A stretch of 41,321 nt of DNA from contig JAFWAX010000035.1 in NCBI GenBank assembly GCA_017507385.1, positions 1 to 41,321 on the forward strand, given 5' to 3'. The first letter of the stretch is position 1, and every line of letters begins with the position of its first letter. The notes beneath the pieces were generated by a model. The model did not search any database. It was given only the letters and a program-made list of their open reading frames with translations, and had not been told where the DNA came from. This DNA comes from Bacteroidaceae bacterium. Its GTDB lineage: Bacteria > Bacteroidota > Bacteroidia > Bacteroidales > Bacteroidaceae. The translations under genes were made by a program, and so were the position numbers. Of this stretch, positions 21,050 to 28,825 are shown in pieces.

Positions 21050-22042
21050 TCATCCTTTAAAAACAGTTTGTCTATGATACTCCAAATATTTTGCTCTTTC
21101 TGAATTTATAGGTAGAAATTGAAAGAATTGGTTTTCTTTAATTCCAATTCTTTCTTTCACTTGTCTTGATAGCCAATTGGAAATGGAAACACGTTTCTCA
21201 TCACTGAAAGTTATAAAACCCCTATCAAAGAGTTTGTCATATAAAGGAGATAAGATGAACCCGTTATTGGGGTCTTTTTTTTCATGCAATGTGGAGACTG
21301 CCCACGGTTTTATGTGGCTGGCTATAAGTAAAGATTCTTCATTAATCATTGTAATGGGACAAAATGGGCACTCTTCTAATAGTTTTTTCCTGTACTCGTC
21401 TTGCCCTTCTCGAGTATATCTCATAGAAGCGGAACGAGTTGGTTTTTCCTCGCAAACAATCCATTCGTCATCATCATCTTGCAAAGATGACATACCATAA
21501 TTTTCAATATACGCTTTACGCTTTTCTATCTCTTGAAAATCCGCAAACAATTTCCAATAATAAATAGGGTGGCCATTGTATATTAAATGCATGGCAGAAA
21601 TGTAACTCACTAATGGGAGAGAAATTTCTCGAATCAGTTGATAAACATCATCGGAAGAATTTACATAACCACGAACACCTCCTATTTGTGTCTGTTCTTT
21701 GATATGAAATGTAATAATATCGGGTAAGGCGTTTATCTTTGCCATGCGTTCAAACCACAATGCACGCATTTCTCCTTTTCCACGATAGTTTTGTGAAGGA
21801 TGGAAATACTCTTCCTTTATAGCGTTCATATATGCCAACAAGTCCTTTTTTACGACAAAACAAGGGACAGTAAAGCCCTGTCCTCCAAAGAAATATTCAA
21901 TCTTATCTTTAGAGCCCACATAGAGTTTTGCCTCTCCATTGCCACCTCCCAGTTTATTTGGGGATTTGACCCAACTATCAGCAACAGATATAGGATTTTC
22001 TATTGTGTCGACAAACTCAAACTTGTTTCCTTCAATAATCAT
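21050..22042 (-). CDS. HNH-family type II restriction endonuclease (putative)
   Basis: Likely the nuclease partner of the upstream C5 methyltransferase. In 330 residues only the C-terminal third is recognisable: CPFC (225-228) as a zinc knuckle, SHIKPW (242-247) with the HNH His, NNGFILSPLYD (259-269) and LFDRGFITFSDEKR, which together match the HNH_2 type found in many restriction enzymes. The N-terminal 200 residues have no motif I know and probably hold target recognition (GGGNGEAKLYVGSKDKIEYFFGGQGF is striking but unassigned). Its ATG overlaps the methyltransferase stop (ATGA), implying translational coupling and methylase-first expression. Codon use is AT-rich compared with neighbours, suggesting transfer. 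Recognition sequence unknown. Confidence 0.75.
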   Translation of the reverse strand: MIIEGNKFEFVDTIENPISVADSWVKSPNKLGGGNGEAKLYVGSKDKIEYFFGGQGFTVPCFVVKKDLLAYMNAIKEEYFHPSQNYRGKGEMRALWFERMAKINALPDIITFHIKEQTQIGGVRGYVNSSDDVYQLIREISLPLVSYISAMHLIYNGHPIYYWKLFADFQEIEKRKAYIENYGMSSLQDDDDEWIVCEEKPTRSASMRYTREGQDEYRKKLLEECPFCPITMINEESLLIASHIKPWAVSTLHEKKDPNNGFILSPLYDKLFDRGFITFSDEKRVSISNWLSRQVKERIGIKENQFFQFLPINSERAKYLEYHRQTVFKG

Positions 22043-23343
22043 ATCTTCCCATATTTAGTTATATCCATTTGTTTCAGAATAGCAATCAATACATCTACCA
22101 CAATACTATTTCCGGCTTGTTGATACATTGCTGTATCTGACACCACTATTTTGAAAGAATCTTTAAATCCCATCAAACGAAGACATTCTCTTGGTGTTAG
22201 TTTTCTAATTCTTCCTTTGTGTGTTACATAGTTATCGACTCCAGCACGATGCATTTTGTGCATTGATTGAAGCAAAGGACGTGCAACATCAAGGTCTGTT
22301 TTTGTTGAAGTTTTAAAGTTCTTTGTTCCACCAGCGAGGACGTATTTTGCAACTTTATCAGAGAGGTAATATTTCTCCTCAACATCTTTAACATCAAAAA
22401 CGAATTCATCAAACGCTTCATCTGTTGGTGTTAATTCTGAATCAGGATGATATACAAAATCGCCATGCCAATTAAATTGCTGATTGCGCTTTTGGCAAAG
22501 TTGAATCTCACCATTGATTTGAGTGTAGGATTTGTCGTGATTCTTGTGGCTGGTCACGAATTTAATGCCTTTTTCTTTGAGGAAATACTTCGTATCGATA
22601 TAGTCCTCCAAGAAGTCATACATTTTGTATTCCAATTCTATTGGAGCAGGGAACTCAAAACTATTCTTTTTCTTAAATCCAAGACAATAGACACGTTCAC
22701 GATGCTGAGGTATACCATAGTCACAACTGTTCAGCACACGAAACTTCACATCGTATCCCAGTTCATTGAAAATGTCGTACATCACATGCCAAGTACGTCC
22801 TTTGTCGTGATTGAGCAATCCACGCACATTCTCAAATAGGAAGACTTTCGGCCGTGTCTCTTTCACGACACGAGCAAACTCATAGAACAATGTTCCACGA
22901 GCATCTTCAAATCCTAAACGATGACCTACCATCGAAAAGGCCTGACACGGTGCTCCGCCAATGACAAAATCTACTTTGCCTTTATATCGTCGGGCATCAA
23001 AGTCTCGAATATCAGTAAACCAATCTTTCTCATTTATCTCATAGTTTGCAAAATAACTTGCTTTACATTTAGGTTCAATATCGCCTGCAAACATAATCTG
23101 ATGTTTCAACCCAAGACGTTGAAAAGCGTGTTCTATAGCACCGATACCGCTGAACACCGTTCCTATCCTGACTGTGTTTTGGGGTTGCGAGAATTGTAAA
23201 TCCTTCCACAATATACCATCAGACAATGGTGTTTGTGGTATTGGGGTCTTATATTCCAACGCCAATGCACGGTCTTTTACAATGCGTTTGACTTTGTCTA
23301 TCTTCTCTGAACTTTCGTTGATATCCTTCTTTACTGTAGCCAT
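22039..23343 (-). CDS. DNA (cytosine-5-)-methyltransferase
   Basis: It methylates C5 of cytosine in a type II restriction-modification system. The 434 residues contain the ordered C5-MTase motifs: VRIGTVFSGIGAIEHAF (motif I, SAM binding, about 58-74), GGAPCQAFSMVGHR (motif IV, catalytic Cys133), FLFENVRGLL (motif VI), IPQHRERVYCLGF (motif VIII) and QQAGNSIVVDVL (motif X). The target-recognition region lies between VIII and X. The start MATVKKDI at 23343 is preferred over the upstream start at 23400 because the latter lies inside a hairpin module and gives an atypical extension. It overlaps the endonuclease gene by 4 nt. A long structured leader precedes it (23344-23910). Confidence 0.93.
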   Translation of the reverse strand: MATVKKDINESSEKIDKVKRIVKDRALALEYKTPIPQTPLSDGILWKDLQFSQPQNTVRIGTVFSGIGAIEHAFQRLGLKHQIMFAGDIEPKCKASYFANYEINEKDWFTDIRDFDARRYKGKVDFVIGGAPCQAFSMVGHRLGFEDARGTLFYEFARVVKETRPKVFLFENVRGLLNHDKGRTWHVMYDIFNELGYDVKFRVLNSCDYGIPQHRERVYCLGFKKKNSFEFPAPIELEYKMYDFLEDYIDTKYFLKEKGIKFVTSHKNHDKSYTQINGEIQLCQKRNQQFNWHGDFVYHPDSELTPTDEAFDEFVFDVKDVEEKYYLSDKVAKYVLAGGTKNFKTSTKTDLDVARPLLQSMHKMHRAGVDNYVTHKGRIRKLTPRECLRLMGFKDSFKIVVSDTAMYQQAGNSIVVDVLIAILKQMDITKYGKI

Positions 23344-23366
23344 GAAAAAGCCCTCTCTTCGTTTTG

Positions 23367-23446
23367 AAAAAAGGGCGTGGCAGAAGATGTGTTTAACCAA
23401 GGCTTACGACGGCCCACATCAGACAACAATCCAACTGTCCACGCCC
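23367..23446 (-). ncRNA. Leader hairpin module A with U-run, attenuator-like
   Basis: Read on the minus strand: GGGCGTGG (23446-23439) pairs with CCACGCCC (23380-23373), then six T (23372-23367). Inside, GATGTG (23420-23415) pairs with CACATC (23391-23386). The module ends 24 nt before the methyltransferase ATG, so terminating here would block the operon. A competing partner for the inner strand lies upstream (see findings). Confidence 0.5.
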
Positions 23447-23597
23447 GTATGAGCGTAAACATCCAATTGCTTGCCTAACTGATGTGTTCCTGAGGTCGTA
23501 ATTCTGGTTAATCAGTCAAATCAAGGATGTCAAAGACTCAATATTTCTTTAACTTTTTTCTTTGTTATTTGTTTTAGGTTATTAACTCTCTACACAG

Positions 23598-23677
23598 AAA
23601 AAAGGGTGCTTAACTTCTGCCTGTCGCATCTGAGGTCACCACAACCATTGCAATAACAGGACAGAGTTAAGACACCC
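23598..23677 (-). ncRNA. Leader hairpin module B with U-run
   Basis: Minus strand: GGGTGTCTTAACTCTG (23677-23662) pairs with CAGAAGTTAAGCACCC (23619-23604) with single-nt bulges, followed by six T (23603-23598). An inner CTGTC/GACAG stem extends it. Layout and downstream T-run parallel module A, 231 bp away. Confidence 0.5.
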
Positions 23678-23694
23678 ACGTTGGAGTATATAGA

Positions 23695-23746
23695 ACACCC
23701 GAGAAGTGTGCATGAGGGCATATACCCTCTGCACACTTGGGATGTG
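23695..23746 (-). ncRNA. Leader hairpin module C
   Basis: AAGTGTGCA+GAGGG (23704-23718, one bulged T) pairs with CCCTC+TGCACACTT (23725-23738) around a CATATA loop, and an outer ACACCC / GGGATGTGT pairing extends it. There is no U-run. It is the first strong structure downstream of the candidate promoter at 23914. Confidence 0.5.
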
Positions 23747-23913
23747 TTTATATGACACTCCCATGAGCATCACCTATGCTTTTGTTTTCGATTGCAAGTT
23801 TGAAAGTGGTGTTTCAGATGCCAAAAACAAAGCGTCAGTAACGCCTTCTAATATGTAGTTTGTTCACCTATTGTACGACTTCAAAAAGTTTCGTCTATTA
23901 AGGTGAGACCTTG

Positions 23914-23945
23914 CAAAATTACATCTTTTTCTGTAAAACACAAAG
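23914..23945 (-). promoter_or_regulatory. Candidate promoter of the restriction-modification operon
   Basis: On the minus strand TAATTTTG (plus-strand 23914-23921) follows TTG (23943-23945) after 21 nt. It is the only TAnnTTTG match on this strand between the methyltransferase gene and 23960, and would give a leader of about 565 nt. Another box (TATCTTTG, plus-strand 24023-24030) lies farther up. Confidence 0.5.
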
Positions 23946-23959
23946 TAATCTTCTGAGAA

Positions 23960-24032
23960 AGATAAATATTCTCTTTATCTTTGTTTTGTGGAGCATTCGG
24001 AAAACCACTCAGCTGTTTTAAACAAAGATAAA
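23960..24032. repeat. Alternating AAAGATAAA / TTTATCTTT inverted repeats
   Basis: AAAGATAAA at 23960-23968 pairs with TTTATCTTT at 23976-23984 (7-nt loop). TTTATCTTTGTTT (23976-23988) is also a perfect 13-bp inverted repeat of AAACAAAGATAAA (24020-24032). The middle copy can pair with only one at a time. Both outer copies hold -7 box sequences (TATCTTTG) that face each other. Confidence 0.55.
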
Positions 24033-24045
24033 ATTCGCGTTATTT

Positions 24046-24216
24046 TATCAAACTGACAAAGAATAATTGACCGGACCCCTCGGGTACGACGCATCGCACC
24101 CCTCGGGTCCGCCATGGCGGACCCGAGGGGTGCGGTTTTTATAGAAAGGCATATTCTTTCTTTTTTCAATATAAATAATGCTGAATATGAATAGATGCTC
24201 ATTCGTCGAACTCACG
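24046..24216 (-). mobile_element. MITE-like element, copy 3 (one end degraded)
   Basis: In reverse orientation this copy begins CGTGAGTTCGACGAAT (24216-24201) and follows copies 1 and 2 through the A-rich tract and the core palindrome (24095-24134, perfect) to GGTCAATTATTC. The far end then diverges and lacks the inverted repeat. CGTTATTT occurs at both sides (24038-24045, 24215-24222), which may be a target duplication or chance. It interrupts an ORF6N coding remnant. Confidence 0.75.
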
Positions 24217-24357
24217 TTATTTACATAGATAGCGGTCTCTGATTTCAGCACACTGTTGAGCATTGCTACGCCAAGTTCGATGAAGTCACAAGGAGGAGGT
24301 TTCGAATGTTGTCCACGCTCTTTGTTAAGGTCGCAAGTTGCGACCTTAATTTGTTTT
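24217..24357 (-). pseudogene. ORF6N-domain protein remnant, interrupted by MITE copy 3
   Basis: On the minus strand the sequence reads KLRSQLATL in one frame and, after a shift, NKERGQHSKPPPCDFIEL followed by GVAMLNSVLKSETAIYVN in the next. This matches the ORF6N consensus I know (RSQIATL...GRGQHxKYxPYAFTEQGVAMLSSVLNSETAIxVNI). Stops occur in both frames just upstream, and the frame breaks at the element end at 24216. Past the element, ITRIL may be the continuation of the VNIxIxR stretch. ORF6N proteins are DNA-binding or accessory proteins common in Bacteroidetes mobile islands. Only about 45 codons survive; there is no intact start. Confidence 0.65.
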
Positions 24358-24472
24358 TCCCTTTTTATGGACTATGAAGAAATTTGTATGGTTTTCATTC
24401 TCTATCAGATATGTGGCAAGGCAGAAAATGTGTTGAATAGGATTCCACCTCCTCAATTTTGCATCATGTCTT

Positions 24473-24503
24473 TTGCACAATAGTATAAAAAGCTGTATCT
24501 TTG
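24473..24503 (+). promoter_or_regulatory. Promoter of the GH16-GH43 gene
   Basis: TTG (24473-24475), 20 nt, then TATCTTTG (24496-24503) is a close match to the Bacteroidetes promoter. Transcription would start near 24508, giving a leader of about 40 nt to the ATG at 24549 and ruling out the in-frame start at 24501. Between the ORF6N remnant and this promoter I see nothing else. Confidence 0.75.
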
Positions 24504-24548
24504 CCAACAATGTACAACACAAACTTACTAAACAACAATCTTTTGACT

Positions 24549-26393
24549 ATGAAAAAGAAAATATTCTGGCTAACGCTTCTGTGCTCATGCATGCAGATGC
24601 TGCCTATGGCGGCACAGGATGAATGGAAACTGGTATGGAGCGAAGAATTCAATTCTGATGGTCCCTACAACCGCGAGGTGTGGGAGGCTGAACAGGGATT
24701 TGTGCGCAACCATGAAGCGCAGTGGTATCAGGAAGACAATGCACGGCAGGAGAACGGATGTCTGGTTATCGAAGCAAAGAAGGAGCGTCGCAACAACCCG
24801 ACATACAAGATTGAGGGGAGGCGAGACTGGCGCAGCGAACGGGAGTTTATCGAATATACCTCTTCTTCGCTCACTACACGCCGCTCGTTCAGCTTTCTGT
24901 ATGGACGGCTGGAGGTGCGCGCCAAGATTCCGACGGGCGGCGGCGCATGGCCTGCCATCTGGCTGCTGGGCAAGGATATGCCATGGCCTTCGTGCGGAGA
25001 GATTGATGTGATGGAGTATTACCGCATCAAGGGCGTTCCCCACATTTTGGCGAATGCTGCGTGGGGCAACAACCAGCAATACAGCGCTGTGTGGGACTCT
25101 AAGGCCATTCCGTTCAGCCATTTCACAGAGAAGGACCTGCAATGGGCTGAGAAGTTCCACATCTGGCGCATGGACTGGAACGCTGAGTCTATCCGCATCT
25201 ATCTCGATGATGAACTGCTTAATGAAATTCCGCTCAGCCAGACTGTCAACGGTTCTATAGGGCAGCATCTTAACCCCTTCATGCGGCCGCAGTATCTGCT
25301 GCTCAATCTTGCCCTCGGGGGTGACAACGGAGGACAGATTGACGATGGGGCGATGCCTATGAGGTATGAAATTGACTATGTGAGGGTGTATCAGCAAGAT
25401 GGGATGCGGACTTTCAGCGGAACAGGCGAAGAAAGGGCTAACCGCAGCCGGACGAGGGTAAGGACTGTTGCTCGCGACAGCATTATCCTTTCCGACCCAT
25501 GTATTTTGGCGGATTCTGCCACACAGGCTTACTACATGACTGGAACGGGTGGAATGCTCTATACCAGCAAGGACCTTAACAATTGGACGGGTCCTTACCA
25601 GGTAGCGCAGACAGACCCTAACTCTTGGATGGGCAGACGTCCGCAAATCTGGGCAGCGGAACTGCATCAGTATAAGGGGAAATACTACTACTTTGCCACG
25701 TTCACTAATGAAGCCATCAAGATTGACACCGTCAGGGGCAATGTCATTCCGCGGCGTGCCTCTCATGTGCTTGTCAGCGACAAGCCTGAAGGACCTTATC
25801 GTCCTATGGCTGACGCTACCTATCTGCCAGAGAAGCAGCCTACGCTGGATGGAACATTCTGGGTGGACAAGGACGGGAAGCCCTACATGATTTACTGTGG
25901 CGAATGGCTGCAGAACTGGGATGGCACGATGGAAAAGATAGAACTCAAGCCCGATCTCAGCGGTTCACTTGGAGAAGGGAAGCTGCTGTTCCGCGCTTCT
26001 GATTCGCCATGGAGCAGAGAGGTGGAGGATGGACGGGTGCGTCCCAACAAGGTGACAGACGGACCTTACCTTTTCCGTACTGCCACAGGCAGGCTGGGCA
26101 TGATATGGACTTCGTGGATAGACGATGTCTATACGCAGGGAGTGGCCTATTCCGAGAGTGGAACGCTGGATGGTCCGTGGGTGCATGAACCTAAGCCCAT
26201 CACGCCTCCGAACTTTGGTCACGGTATGCTTTTCCGAGCCCTCGACGGCAGCTGGCTCATGTCTGTGCACAGCCACAAGAATGTCAATGGCCGCTACATC
26301 CGAGTGCCTCATCTCTTTGAGATAGACCTCTCGGGCGATAAACTCAAAGTGGGGAAGAAGATAGAAGGGGAGTGGGTGCCTCAAAATCAATAG
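24549..26393 (+). CDS. Two-domain glycoside hydrolase: GH16 fused to GH43
   Basis: An exported enzyme with two catalytic modules in 614 residues. The signal peptide is probably cleaved before Gln23 (LPMAA|QDEWK); LLCSC could alternatively be read as a weak lipobox. The GH16 module (about 25-285) has LVWSEEFNSDG, FLYGRLEVRAKIPTGGGAWPAIW and the catalytic GEIDVMEYY (nucleophile Glu151, Asp153, acid/base Glu156), the laminarinase/beta-glucanase type. The GH43 propeller (about 305-610) has LSDPCILADSATQAYYMTGT (base Asp), QPTLDGTFWVDKDGKPYMIYC and KVTDGPYLFRTATGRLGMIW. Together they suggest cutting a beta-glucan or galactan backbone and trimming a side chain. In GH43 the general-acid Glu is not evident at the usual (T/A)EGP position, where DGP is seen. 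Confidence 0.88.
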   Translation: MKKKIFWLTLLCSCMQMLPMAAQDEWKLVWSEEFNSDGPYNREVWEAEQGFVRNHEAQWYQEDNARQENGCLVIEAKKERRNNPTYKIEGRRDWRSEREFIEYTSSSLTTRRSFSFLYGRLEVRAKIPTGGGAWPAIWLLGKDMPWPSCGEIDVMEYYRIKGVPHILANAAWGNNQQYSAVWDSKAIPFSHFTEKDLQWAEKFHIWRMDWNAESIRIYLDDELLNEIPLSQTVNGSIGQHLNPFMRPQYLLLNLALGGDNGGQIDDGAMPMRYEIDYVRVYQQDGMRTFSGTGEERANRSRTRVRTVARDSIILSDPCILADSATQAYYMTGTGGMLYTSKDLNNWTGPYQVAQTDPNSWMGRRPQIWAAELHQYKGKYYYFATFTNEAIKIDTVRGNVIPRRASHVLVSDKPEGPYRPMADATYLPEKQPTLDGTFWVDKDGKPYMIYCGEWLQNWDGTMEKIELKPDLSGSLGEGKLLFRASDSPWSREVEDGRVRPNKVTDGPYLFRTATGRLGMIWTSWIDDVYTQGVAYSESGTLDGPWVHEPKPITPPNFGHGMLFRALDGSWLMSVHSHKNVNGRYIRVPHLFEIDLSGDKLKVGKKIEGEWVPQNQ

Positions 26394-27685: not shown

Positions 27686-28825
27686 ATGGTGAATCAGGAG
27701 ATTATCTTTTCTATTGCGCTGTCGAAACTGAAAGGACTGAGCGTTTTAAATGCACGGATTTTGCTTGATGCGATGGGTTCGGCAAGCGAAATCTTTGCTC
27801 ACCGAAAAGATATTCTTCAGATGATACCTCATGCCAGCCAACGCCTTCAGGACGCATTGACTCGTATGGATGAGGTCATTGATGAGGCTAAAGCGGAGGC
27901 TGAGTTTATAGAGAAAAACCGCATCAAGGCCCTTACGTTAGCCAGCAGCGAGTATCCGCAAAGATTGAAAGAGTGCGAGGATGCCCCTCTTGTGCTGTAC
28001 TTGTGTGGTGATACAGACCTTAACCGACAGCGTGTCATCAGCATTGTAGGTACAAGAAAATGTTCTGAATATGGGCGTGAAGTATGTCGCCAGTTCATTT
28101 CGGAGCTTAAGCGGTATTATCCTGACACGCTCATTGTCAGCGGTTTGGCATACGGAATCGACATTTGTGCACACCGTTCTGCCCTTGACAATGGAATGGA
28201 TACGGTGGGAGTGCTTGCTCACGGATTGGACACCATCTATCCTTCCATGCATAGGACAACAGCGGCAGATATGGTGCGTCATGGAGGTGGCCTGTTGACG
28301 GAATACACGACAAGGACAAAGCCTGACAAGATGAACTTTGTGCATCGGAATCGCATCGTTGCAGGAATATGTGACGCTTGCATTGTTGTGGAGAGTTCTG
28401 CCAAGGGAGGCTCGCTGATTACAGCAGAATTGGCTTCTAATTACAACCGTGATGTGTTTGCCTTCCCCGGCCGTATTTATGACGAATGCAGCGCGGGGTG
28501 CAACAGCCTTGTCAAGCGGCATCAGGCAACGCTGCTAACAAATGTGGAAGACTTGATTGAGACGATGGGATGGCATAATCCTTTGGCAGAGGATTCTCAT
28601 AAAAAGGTTGTTCAGCAAGAGCTTTTTCCGGAACTGAATGAGGAAGAAGCAGCATTGGTGAACGCATTAAAAAATGTCGATGACAAACATATTAATCAGA
28701 TTGTCATCGACTCAAACATTCCTTATTCGCGTGCAAGCATGATTCTCTTCGACCTTGAGATGAAAGGGCTTGTCAAGGCGTTGGGCGGTGCAAGATACAG
28801 GATGGTAAGAAACTTGGCAGAGTAA
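27686..28825 (+). CDS. dprA: DNA-processing protein DprA
   Basis: A recombination mediator that protects incoming single-stranded DNA and loads RecA during transformation. In 379 residues there is an N-terminal helix-hairpin-helix/SAM-like region (about 1-75), then the Rossmann-like DprA core with ISIVGTRKCSEYGREV, IVSGLAYGIDICAHRSAL, GLDTIYPSMHR, HRNRIVAGICDACIVVESS, KGGSLITAELA and VFAFPGRIYDECSAGCNSLV. A C-terminal winged helix (NQIVIDSNIPYSRASMILFDLEMKGLV) completes the normal three-part architecture. It ends 5 bp before the convergent ABC exporter gene. Confidence 0.96.
   Translation: MVNQEIIFSIALSKLKGLSVLNARILLDAMGSASEIFAHRKDILQMIPHASQRLQDALTRMDEVIDEAKAEAEFIEKNRIKALTLASSEYPQRLKECEDAPLVLYLCGDTDLNRQRVISIVGTRKCSEYGREVCRQFISELKRYYPDTLIVSGLAYGIDICAHRSALDNGMDTVGVLAHGLDTIYPSMHRTTAADMVRHGGGLLTEYTTRTKPDKMNFVHRNRIVAGICDACIVVESSAKGGSLITAELASNYNRDVFAFPGRIYDECSAGCNSLVKRHQATLLTNVEDLIETMGWHNPLAEDSHKKVVQQELFPELNEEEAALVNALKNVDDKHINQIVIDSNIPYSRASMILFDLEMKGLVKALGGARYRMVRNLAE

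Follow-up and report, generated by a model that had tools for sequence, protein, structure and literature searches.

A candidate tandem RNA switch in the leader of a DNA methyltransferase–endonuclease operon from a Bacteroidaceae bacterium

A long structured leader precedes the operon

The window, by which we mean the whole 41,321-nucleotide stretch of contig JAFWAX010000035.1 from a Bacteroidaceae bacterium that was analysed, carries on its minus strand a gene for a 434-residue C5-cytosine DNA methyltransferase (22042–23343; PF00145, 1.3e-81; TIGR00675), followed with a one-base overlap by a gene for an HNH endonuclease (21050–22042; PF13391, 2.9e-10; PADLOC HNH/REase_II) that is probably the restriction enzyme of the pair. 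Upstream of this operon is a minus-strand leader (23907–23344) with a single Bacteroidetes-type promoter and about 564 nucleotides without a known gene between that promoter and the methyltransferase ATG (23343–23341). The promoter consists of TTTG (23944–23941) and, after a 19-nucleotide spacing, TAATTTTG (23921–23914); it was recognized in the sequence and its relatives by the TTTG/TAnnTTTG pattern, which we take to be the promoter consensus, and transcription would start near 23907. An earlier note on this DNA had called TAATTTTG the only good minus-strand promoter in 23344–23960, and it is indeed the sole TAnnTTTG on that strand; the upstream element proposed in the note, TTG at 23943–23945, gives way to the TTTG as the actual −33 element.

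The 602-nucleotide minus strand folds at −208.3 kcal/mol, compared with −151.9 ± 8.6 kcal/mol for 20 shuffled sequences (z = −6.5), none of which folded as well. ARAGORN detected no tRNA or tmRNA in the leader, and Rfam 15 gave no match at curated thresholds in the window or in 20 related loci, in agreement with the claim that the leader holds no known gene; a scan of 22900–24600 at E ≤ 10 returned sub-threshold matches only. BLASTN searches of 45 genomes of the genus divided the leader into two units, B (about 23859–23590) and A (about 23557–23344). Just upstream of the leader promoter lies a perfect 40-bp palindrome (24095–24134; CGCACCCCTCGGGTCCGCCA plus its complement, with no spacer), adjoined by a 75% inverted match at 24070–24101, and the window also contains a DprA-family gene (27686–28825) that PADLOC scores in addition as the phage-defence protein ShosA.

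Module B pairs its 5′ strand with a terminator loop

Module B spans about 23907–23598 on the minus strand. Directly after the predicted start, the aligned flanks reveal hairpin P0 (TCACCT ... AGGTGA; 23864–23906), whose letters differ among leaders while pairing is kept, with own partners beating swapped ones in 61 of 76 parsable leaders in a comparison that had no mismatched control. P0 is followed by a core that is near-invariant in the alignments (CTACATATT..GGCGTTACTGACGC-TTTGTTTTTGG; 23821–23858), comprising hairpin P1 and then a U-rich stretch, and by a 5′ pairing strand (23791–23821) with segments 5a (GCATCTGA, 23821–23814), b (CACCAC, 23811–23806), and 5c (TTGCAAT, 23797–23791). A hairpin domain comes next, including P4 (GTGTGC ... 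GCACAC; 23706–23736), which is paired in 99.6% of cells across 95 RNAs. Sequence and fold then identify an intrinsic terminator (23598–23677) with a 5′ arm at 23677–23655, a 3′ arm at 23625–23604, and six T at 23603–23598. Inside the terminator loop sits the 3′ pairing strand (23626–23654), made up of 3a (ATTGCAA, 23654–23648), b (GTGGTG, 23642–23637), and 3c (TCAGATGC, 23633–23626). The order of elements is thus 5a-b-5c, hairpin domain, terminator 5′ arm, 3a-b-3c, terminator 3′ arm, and U run.

Multiple comparisons support pairing between the 5′ strand and the terminator loop. First, partners were swapped among 95 aligned module-B RNAs (96 strong matches minus L154, whose sequence is cut), with the loop segments taken from alignment columns; pattern matching had located loops in just 72 of 96. 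Duplexes between own partners averaged −10.7 (a), −10.4 (b), and −8.1 (c) kcal/mol, as against −3.5, −3.0, and −2.8 kcal/mol for swapped partners, and own pairing beat the mean of swapped partners in 93, 94, and 93 of the 95 RNAs, respectively. Two controls with mismatched segments were null (own better in 39/95 and 49/95). Second, the 63 pairs of the named structure had a covariation score of 0.359, compared to 0.185 for shuffled and 0.083–0.156 for slid versions, and contained 705 double-change cells as against 261 (shuffled) and 133–295 (slid). Helix b is 92% paired, with double changes at six of its eight pairs, and helices 8 and 9 of the terminator stem also covary and are 92–94% paired. 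RNAalifold applied to the 5′ half alone found no double changes; the signal emerged only once the 5′ half was set against the 3′ half. Helices a, b, and c together average 23 bp and amount to 21 bp in the window. The tail of 5a can also pair locally around b in a hairpin, P2a (own better in 83/95, control 33/95), and 5a therefore has two partners.

Module A repeats the arrangement

Module A (23511–23367, minus strand) has the same order of segments. Partner swapping with 51 RNAs defined a 5′ pairing strand (23479–23511) with 5a (TTAACCAG, 23511–23504), b (TTACGAC, 23501–23495), and 5c (CACATCAG, 23486–23479), and a 3′ pairing strand (23393–23422) with 3a (CTGATGTG, 23422–23415), b (GTCGTAA, 23410–23404), and 3c (CTTGGTTAA, 23401–23393); own partners were better in 51/51 (a), 51/51 (b), and 38/51 (c) comparisons, with controls at 13/51 and 16/51. 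The b strands, which are 90 nucleotides apart here and about 170 apart in module B, occur as TTACGAC/GTCGTAA, TTAGGAC/GTCCTAA, TTACCAC/GTGGTAG, TTAGCAC/GTGCTAA, and CTTGCAC/GTGCAAG. In each module, then, three 5′ segments are complementary to three loop segments of the downstream terminator, and this complementarity is kept through sequence change.

The module A terminator, read from the sequence, has a 5′ arm GGGCGTGG (23446–23439) and, at 23367–23380, a 3′ arm CCACGCCC and six T (23372–23367), its arms being near-constant (47 of 51 identical, four slightly changed). The 5′ arm is contained in a local hairpin (TTTACGCTC/GGGCGTGGA; 23438–23459) present in the RNAalifold consensus of the 51 sequences. 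By sequence and fold, a second hairpin (GCCC.../GAAGAGAGGGC; 23345–23376) shares its GCCC with this terminator, carries five T, and ends at the start codon. The earlier note had described a long structured leader with tandem terminator modules, both ending in six-T runs and module A ending 24 nucleotides before the ATG; the letters agree with this description, as do the folding energy and the conserved structure in relatives.

A weak module-A match (L346 in G121:C1, 39.5 bits) precedes a 76-residue frame resembling a helix-turn-helix protein; it has the a-AA-b-c arrangement of module A in unrelated letters.

Distribution of the RNA family

BLASTN matches to the leader occur in 26 of the 45 genus genomes, a few of them to the promoter stretch only, and module B matches two more loci of the genome that contains the window. 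At four loci (L063, L064, L067, and L072), module B is matched over its first ~40 nucleotides, the core, only; at L064 the core leads, as judged by eye, into a methyltransferase-like gene with no B structure evident, and L067 and L072 hold weak matches of a second type besides the core.

Searches with R1, a covariance model built from 34 sequences for the module B 3′ half, gave matches at E ≤ 0.01 in 40 of the 45 genus genomes and at E ≤ 0.001 in 167 of 301 family genomes, from 24 of 30 genera, both counts including weak and antisense self-matches; by a hand count from the table, the best E value was 1e-12 or lower in 69 of the 301. Weak matches on the opposite strand (25–37 bits) reflect self-complementarity of strong matches and were not counted as copies. 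Across the order, R1 matched 12 of 295 genomes at E ≤ 1e-5, and copies of at least 55 bits occurred in five genomes outside the family (G342, G434, G474, G551, and G577). The earlier note had set the lack of conserved structure in homologous loci as grounds for giving up the idea; the covariance search recovered conserved structure with strong covariation. One contig (G129:C17) carries two module-B leaders (L166 and L171), 18 kb apart and in opposite orientations.

A public genome collection contained an exact 23-nucleotide piece of the core in 115 stretches. Among the 80 titles listed, all were assigned to Prevotella, Prevotellaceae, Alloprevotella, Bacteroidaceae, Bacteroidales, or Bacteroidia; many records are ruminant metagenome assemblies, and cultured strains include Prevotella communis E15-14. 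In the largely open-access literature covered, no title, abstract opening, or passage pointed to this element.

Genes behind the leaders

Our census comprised the 96 strong R1 matches, all scoring at least 68.9 bits. According to a simple frame rule, the next gene lies on the same strand at 87 of the 95 leaders for which a gene was found; in the eight exceptions (L042, L057, L074, L104, L133, L134, L136, and L137), a same-strand frame is masked by a longer antisense frame. Upstream genes are divided between the same (47) and the opposite (36) strand. The median distance from model end to gene is 71 nucleotides, with 65 of 96 within 130 nucleotides and longer distances where module A or other inserts intervene. 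In 86 of 95 module-B leaders, TAnnTTTG occurs ~155–205 nucleotides ahead of the model start, compared with 43 of 1570 control windows; this bears out the promoter assignment in the window. By contrast, the motif lies within ~47 nucleotides past the model end in one of 95 leaders and between model end and gene in three of 96 relatives, and the window leader has no further TAnnTTTG after 23914; judged by motif, no start is predicted downstream of 23373, a position that the earlier note had named as decisive.

Pfam families of the first genes at the 96 loci, whose tallies overlap and of which 25 of 51 were listed, are headed by DNA modification: C5-methyltransferase (30), N6_Mtase (8), Eco57I (7), and MmeI (5). 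Others are Acyl_transf_3 (5), hexapeptide transferases (5), NusG (5), MBOAT (4), SNF2 (3), ResIII helicase (3), and D12 methyltransferase, HsdM_N, PLD, and LRR_5 (2 each). All five NusG genes (PF02357; L136 in G000:C60, L125, L133, L137, and L074) score above the NCBIfam UpxY cut-off, and one, L136, is in the window's own genome; UpxY is not encoded in the window's operon. The position of UpxY genes behind module-B leaders hints, from sequence, at autoregulation. The check proposed in the earlier note, whether the leader always sits before methyltransferase genes, comes out negative for module B, which also precedes acyltransferase and UpxY genes and, in weaker relatives viewed by eye, genes for secreted proteins. 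The RNA-based control that the note envisaged for restriction-modification operons, perhaps delaying or limiting expression, is too narrow a reading for module B, given the acyltransferase, UpxY, and other genes.

Among 40 listed weaker matches in the genus (L369–L408), a same-strand frame follows closely in 39. As judged by eye, these frames frequently encode secreted, lipoprotein-like, or fimbrillin-like proteins, and they include one UpxY-like gene (L388) and one sugar-nucleotide gene (L369). Most of the 40 matches belong to a second type within the same RNA architecture, with the loop GGCAATGCGAAGGCC or similar.

For module A, a link to methyltransferases holds more often. Of 51 distinct BLASTN sequences, 49 are followed by a frame of at least 60 residues, and all 49 encode C5-methyltransferases, in a set biased by its selection through B or the core; the other two are followed by a 44-residue methyltransferase-like fragment (L265) and a 29-residue frame (L212). 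Behind B and A at L044/L265 (G018:C140), a short frame that begins like a methyltransferase (DLFAG) ends early, and after it comes a separate 484-residue frame with a C5-methyltransferase match. The methyltransferases behind module A are 21–93% identical to the window's enzyme. An unbiased module A model (R2) gave 21 strong matches (114 bits or more) in 301 genomes, of which, by eye, 15 lead into C5-methyltransferases and six (L339 and L341–L345) into other genes, so the claim for module A stands for most loci and fails for these six. No module B was found within 420 nucleotides upstream of L338, L339, or L341–L345, L339 being at a contig edge; B lies further away in L325, and L149 carries B and A before a C5-methyltransferase gene.

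A candidate pseudoknotted attenuator

On the sequence evidence, we consider it likely that the leader consists of two consecutive copies, B and then A, of one cis-acting RNA switch that controls transcription of the methyltransferase and nuclease genes. Leaders of this type are best read as pseudoknotted, bistable attenuators of transcription that make up a new family, arranged in tandem here. By motif, the elements expected of an attenuator are in place: an upstream promoter, a terminator before the gene, a gene on the same strand, and no other promoter. We propose that a long-range duplex of ~20 bp forms as polymerase passes, that the terminator stem then cannot close, and that polymerase reads on into the gene; with the 5′ strand held instead in local hairpin P2, the terminator would form and transcription would stop before the gene. 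The ends of a ~20-bp duplex would be ~55–60 Å apart and the terminator arms abut those ends, so long-range pairing may block the terminator and the two states would then be mutually exclusive. They may instead coexist as a pseudoknot, a choice that nested folding cannot decide. The near-invariance of the 5′ core (P1 and the U-rich stretch) suggests that the balance is tipped there, either by a pause or by a factor acting in trans, which could be a protein of the NusG type. The module appears to serve repeatedly as the leader of accessory operons, chiefly those for DNA modification and for surface or polysaccharide genes.

Both alternative structures covary, and their mean energies differ little although individual values scatter widely: in nested folds of 95 RNAs, the long-range minus terminator energy averaged −2.4 kcal/mol (sd 8.5; range −25.7 to 23.5). 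The minimum-energy fold holds the terminator in 27 of 95 RNAs and the long-range b helix in 67. For the window, folding without constraint (−103.3) retains the terminator, and forcing the long-range state gives −102.7, a rough comparison in that the forced-terminator energy (−100.9) is worse than the unconstrained one.

Several observations count against the attenuator reading. The energy difference is at least 5 kcal/mol in 55 of 95 RNAs and below 5 kcal/mol in 40, so bistability may not extend to every leader. Helix c is poorly aligned and 58% paired on the alignment, and the b partners are mismatched in at least two module-B leaders (L053 and L057). The T run is weak in many relatives (CGCTTTTC, for example), and nine of 95 module-B leaders have no promoter motif at the expected place. 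The second module A hairpin also ends in five T, so either state may be the one that reads through.

Of the alternatives, the one that fares best, though we give it well under even chances, is that the leader is an ops/JUMPstart- or LoaP-like element whose 5′ core is bound by an UpxY-family NusG paralogue, leading to read-through of the terminators. Besides the five UpxY first genes, it is favoured by the presence of module B at the own-genome UpxY gene and at all four of the homologues most similar to it in the genus (71–80% identity), by the two loci (L063 and L064) at which BLASTN shows just the 40-nucleotide core, and by LoaP leaders, which according to PMC12691694 contain both a hairpin and a terminator. 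However, the leader has no ops-like site, and UpxY recruitment leaves the pairing of the terminator loop with the 5′ strand unexplained. Moreover, the module-B-rich drafts G012, G015, G018, and G020 (83–86% complete) lack a close homologue of the own-genome UpxY; on these grounds a single trans-acting UpxY for all leaders was rejected, and UpxY dependence is unlikely to be universal across them.

It is improbable that module B is a free-standing small RNA located before these genes by chance. Promoter, compact structure, and terminator would make a complete small-RNA gene, but its orientation is constant, a gene follows soon after, 93 of 96 relatives lack TAnnTTTG in between, and module A runs into the start codon.

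At one locus of another species (L037 in G011), the window's flanks are kept (a GH16/GH43-type gene at 75%, leucyl-tRNA synthetase at 84 and 76%, and a YitT gene at 76%), and the promoter and module B are 83% identical to those of the window; module A is absent, and the payload, a C5-methyltransferase gene (29% protein identity) and a second gene with no family assigned, has no DNA match to the window. Here the leader stays while the payload changes. This locus, together with an MSKK start in 29 of 51 otherwise diverse C5-methyltransferases behind module A, would suit a DNA-level exchange point, in which a folded site is one behind which payload genes insert. Against this quite unlikely reading, compensatory changes that include G-U pairs and the kept promoter point to RNA, the 41-kb window holds no second leader copy, and the exact 23-nucleotide core is absent from the viral contigs searched; BLASTN with the leader had no hits in phage and plasmid collections, and those collections thus give no indication of a recent mobile element. 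A metabolite riboswitch, for S-adenosylmethionine or a sugar nucleotide for instance, is very unlikely: the architecture is riboswitch-like and methyltransferases use S-adenosylmethionine, but the downstream genes have no evident common pathway, no Rfam riboswitch matches, and the paired segments vary freely.

Implications

Returning to the attenuator reading, we can tentatively envisage, as a possibility rather than an expectation, a post-initiation regulon in Bacteroidales, mainly rumen relatives of Prevotella, in which one pseudoknotted switch and a shared signal or factor gate restriction-modification, other defence, capsule antiterminators, and surface decoration. If so, a cell could shift its surface identity and its defence against phages in concert, and any payload gene newly inserted downstream of an existing leader would be under regulation from the outset. 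Known controls of restriction-modification genes include C proteins and methyltransferase autoregulation. Control by DNA inversion in Bacteroides is described in the part of PMC12632263 covered. Placed ahead of dozens of unrelated systems, an RNA switch would constitute a separate regulatory layer, and this could account for how newly acquired modification systems are held silent or dosed after entering a host.

Comparison with known systems

The UpxY-dependent leaders of Bacteroides capsule operons, reportedly described by Chatzidaki-Livanis in 2009 and Saba in 2024, resemble this leader in being long, containing hairpins, and preceding polysaccharide operons in the same order, and UpxY follows module B at some loci. 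Those leaders are tied to their own upxY, however, whereas module-B operons mostly start without UpxY and many are for DNA modification. RfaH with ops/JUMPstart (RF01707) is similar in that one element precedes many unrelated accessory operons; the present leader differs in having no ops or Rfam match, a far larger structured RNA, and a built-in terminator. With GGCGGTAG..TG, which we take to be the ops consensus, and up to two mismatches, there was no site in 23344–23960 and 21 elsewhere in the window, the chance level.

The tetQ leader of Bacteroides, in which attenuation is linked to translation in one operon, shares leader-based control within the phylum, whereas the leader described here belongs to a multi-copy family. 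As in riboswitches and attenuators of the terminator/antiterminator type, two alternative folds surround an intrinsic terminator; in contrast to those, the partner of the 5′ strand is the terminator loop, contacted through three segments, and not a stem arm, which would be an unusual antiterminator design, and the genes serve defence and surface functions, not one pathway. These comparisons drew on the parts covered of PMC12691694, PMC7593976, PMC12632263, PMC2864571, PMC8040213, and PMC7366714. LoaP-responsive leaders, as presented in the portion of PMC12691694 used, likewise place an RNA hairpin and then an intrinsic terminator before long accessory operons; what sets the present family apart from them is its conserved long-range pseudoknot with the terminator loop.
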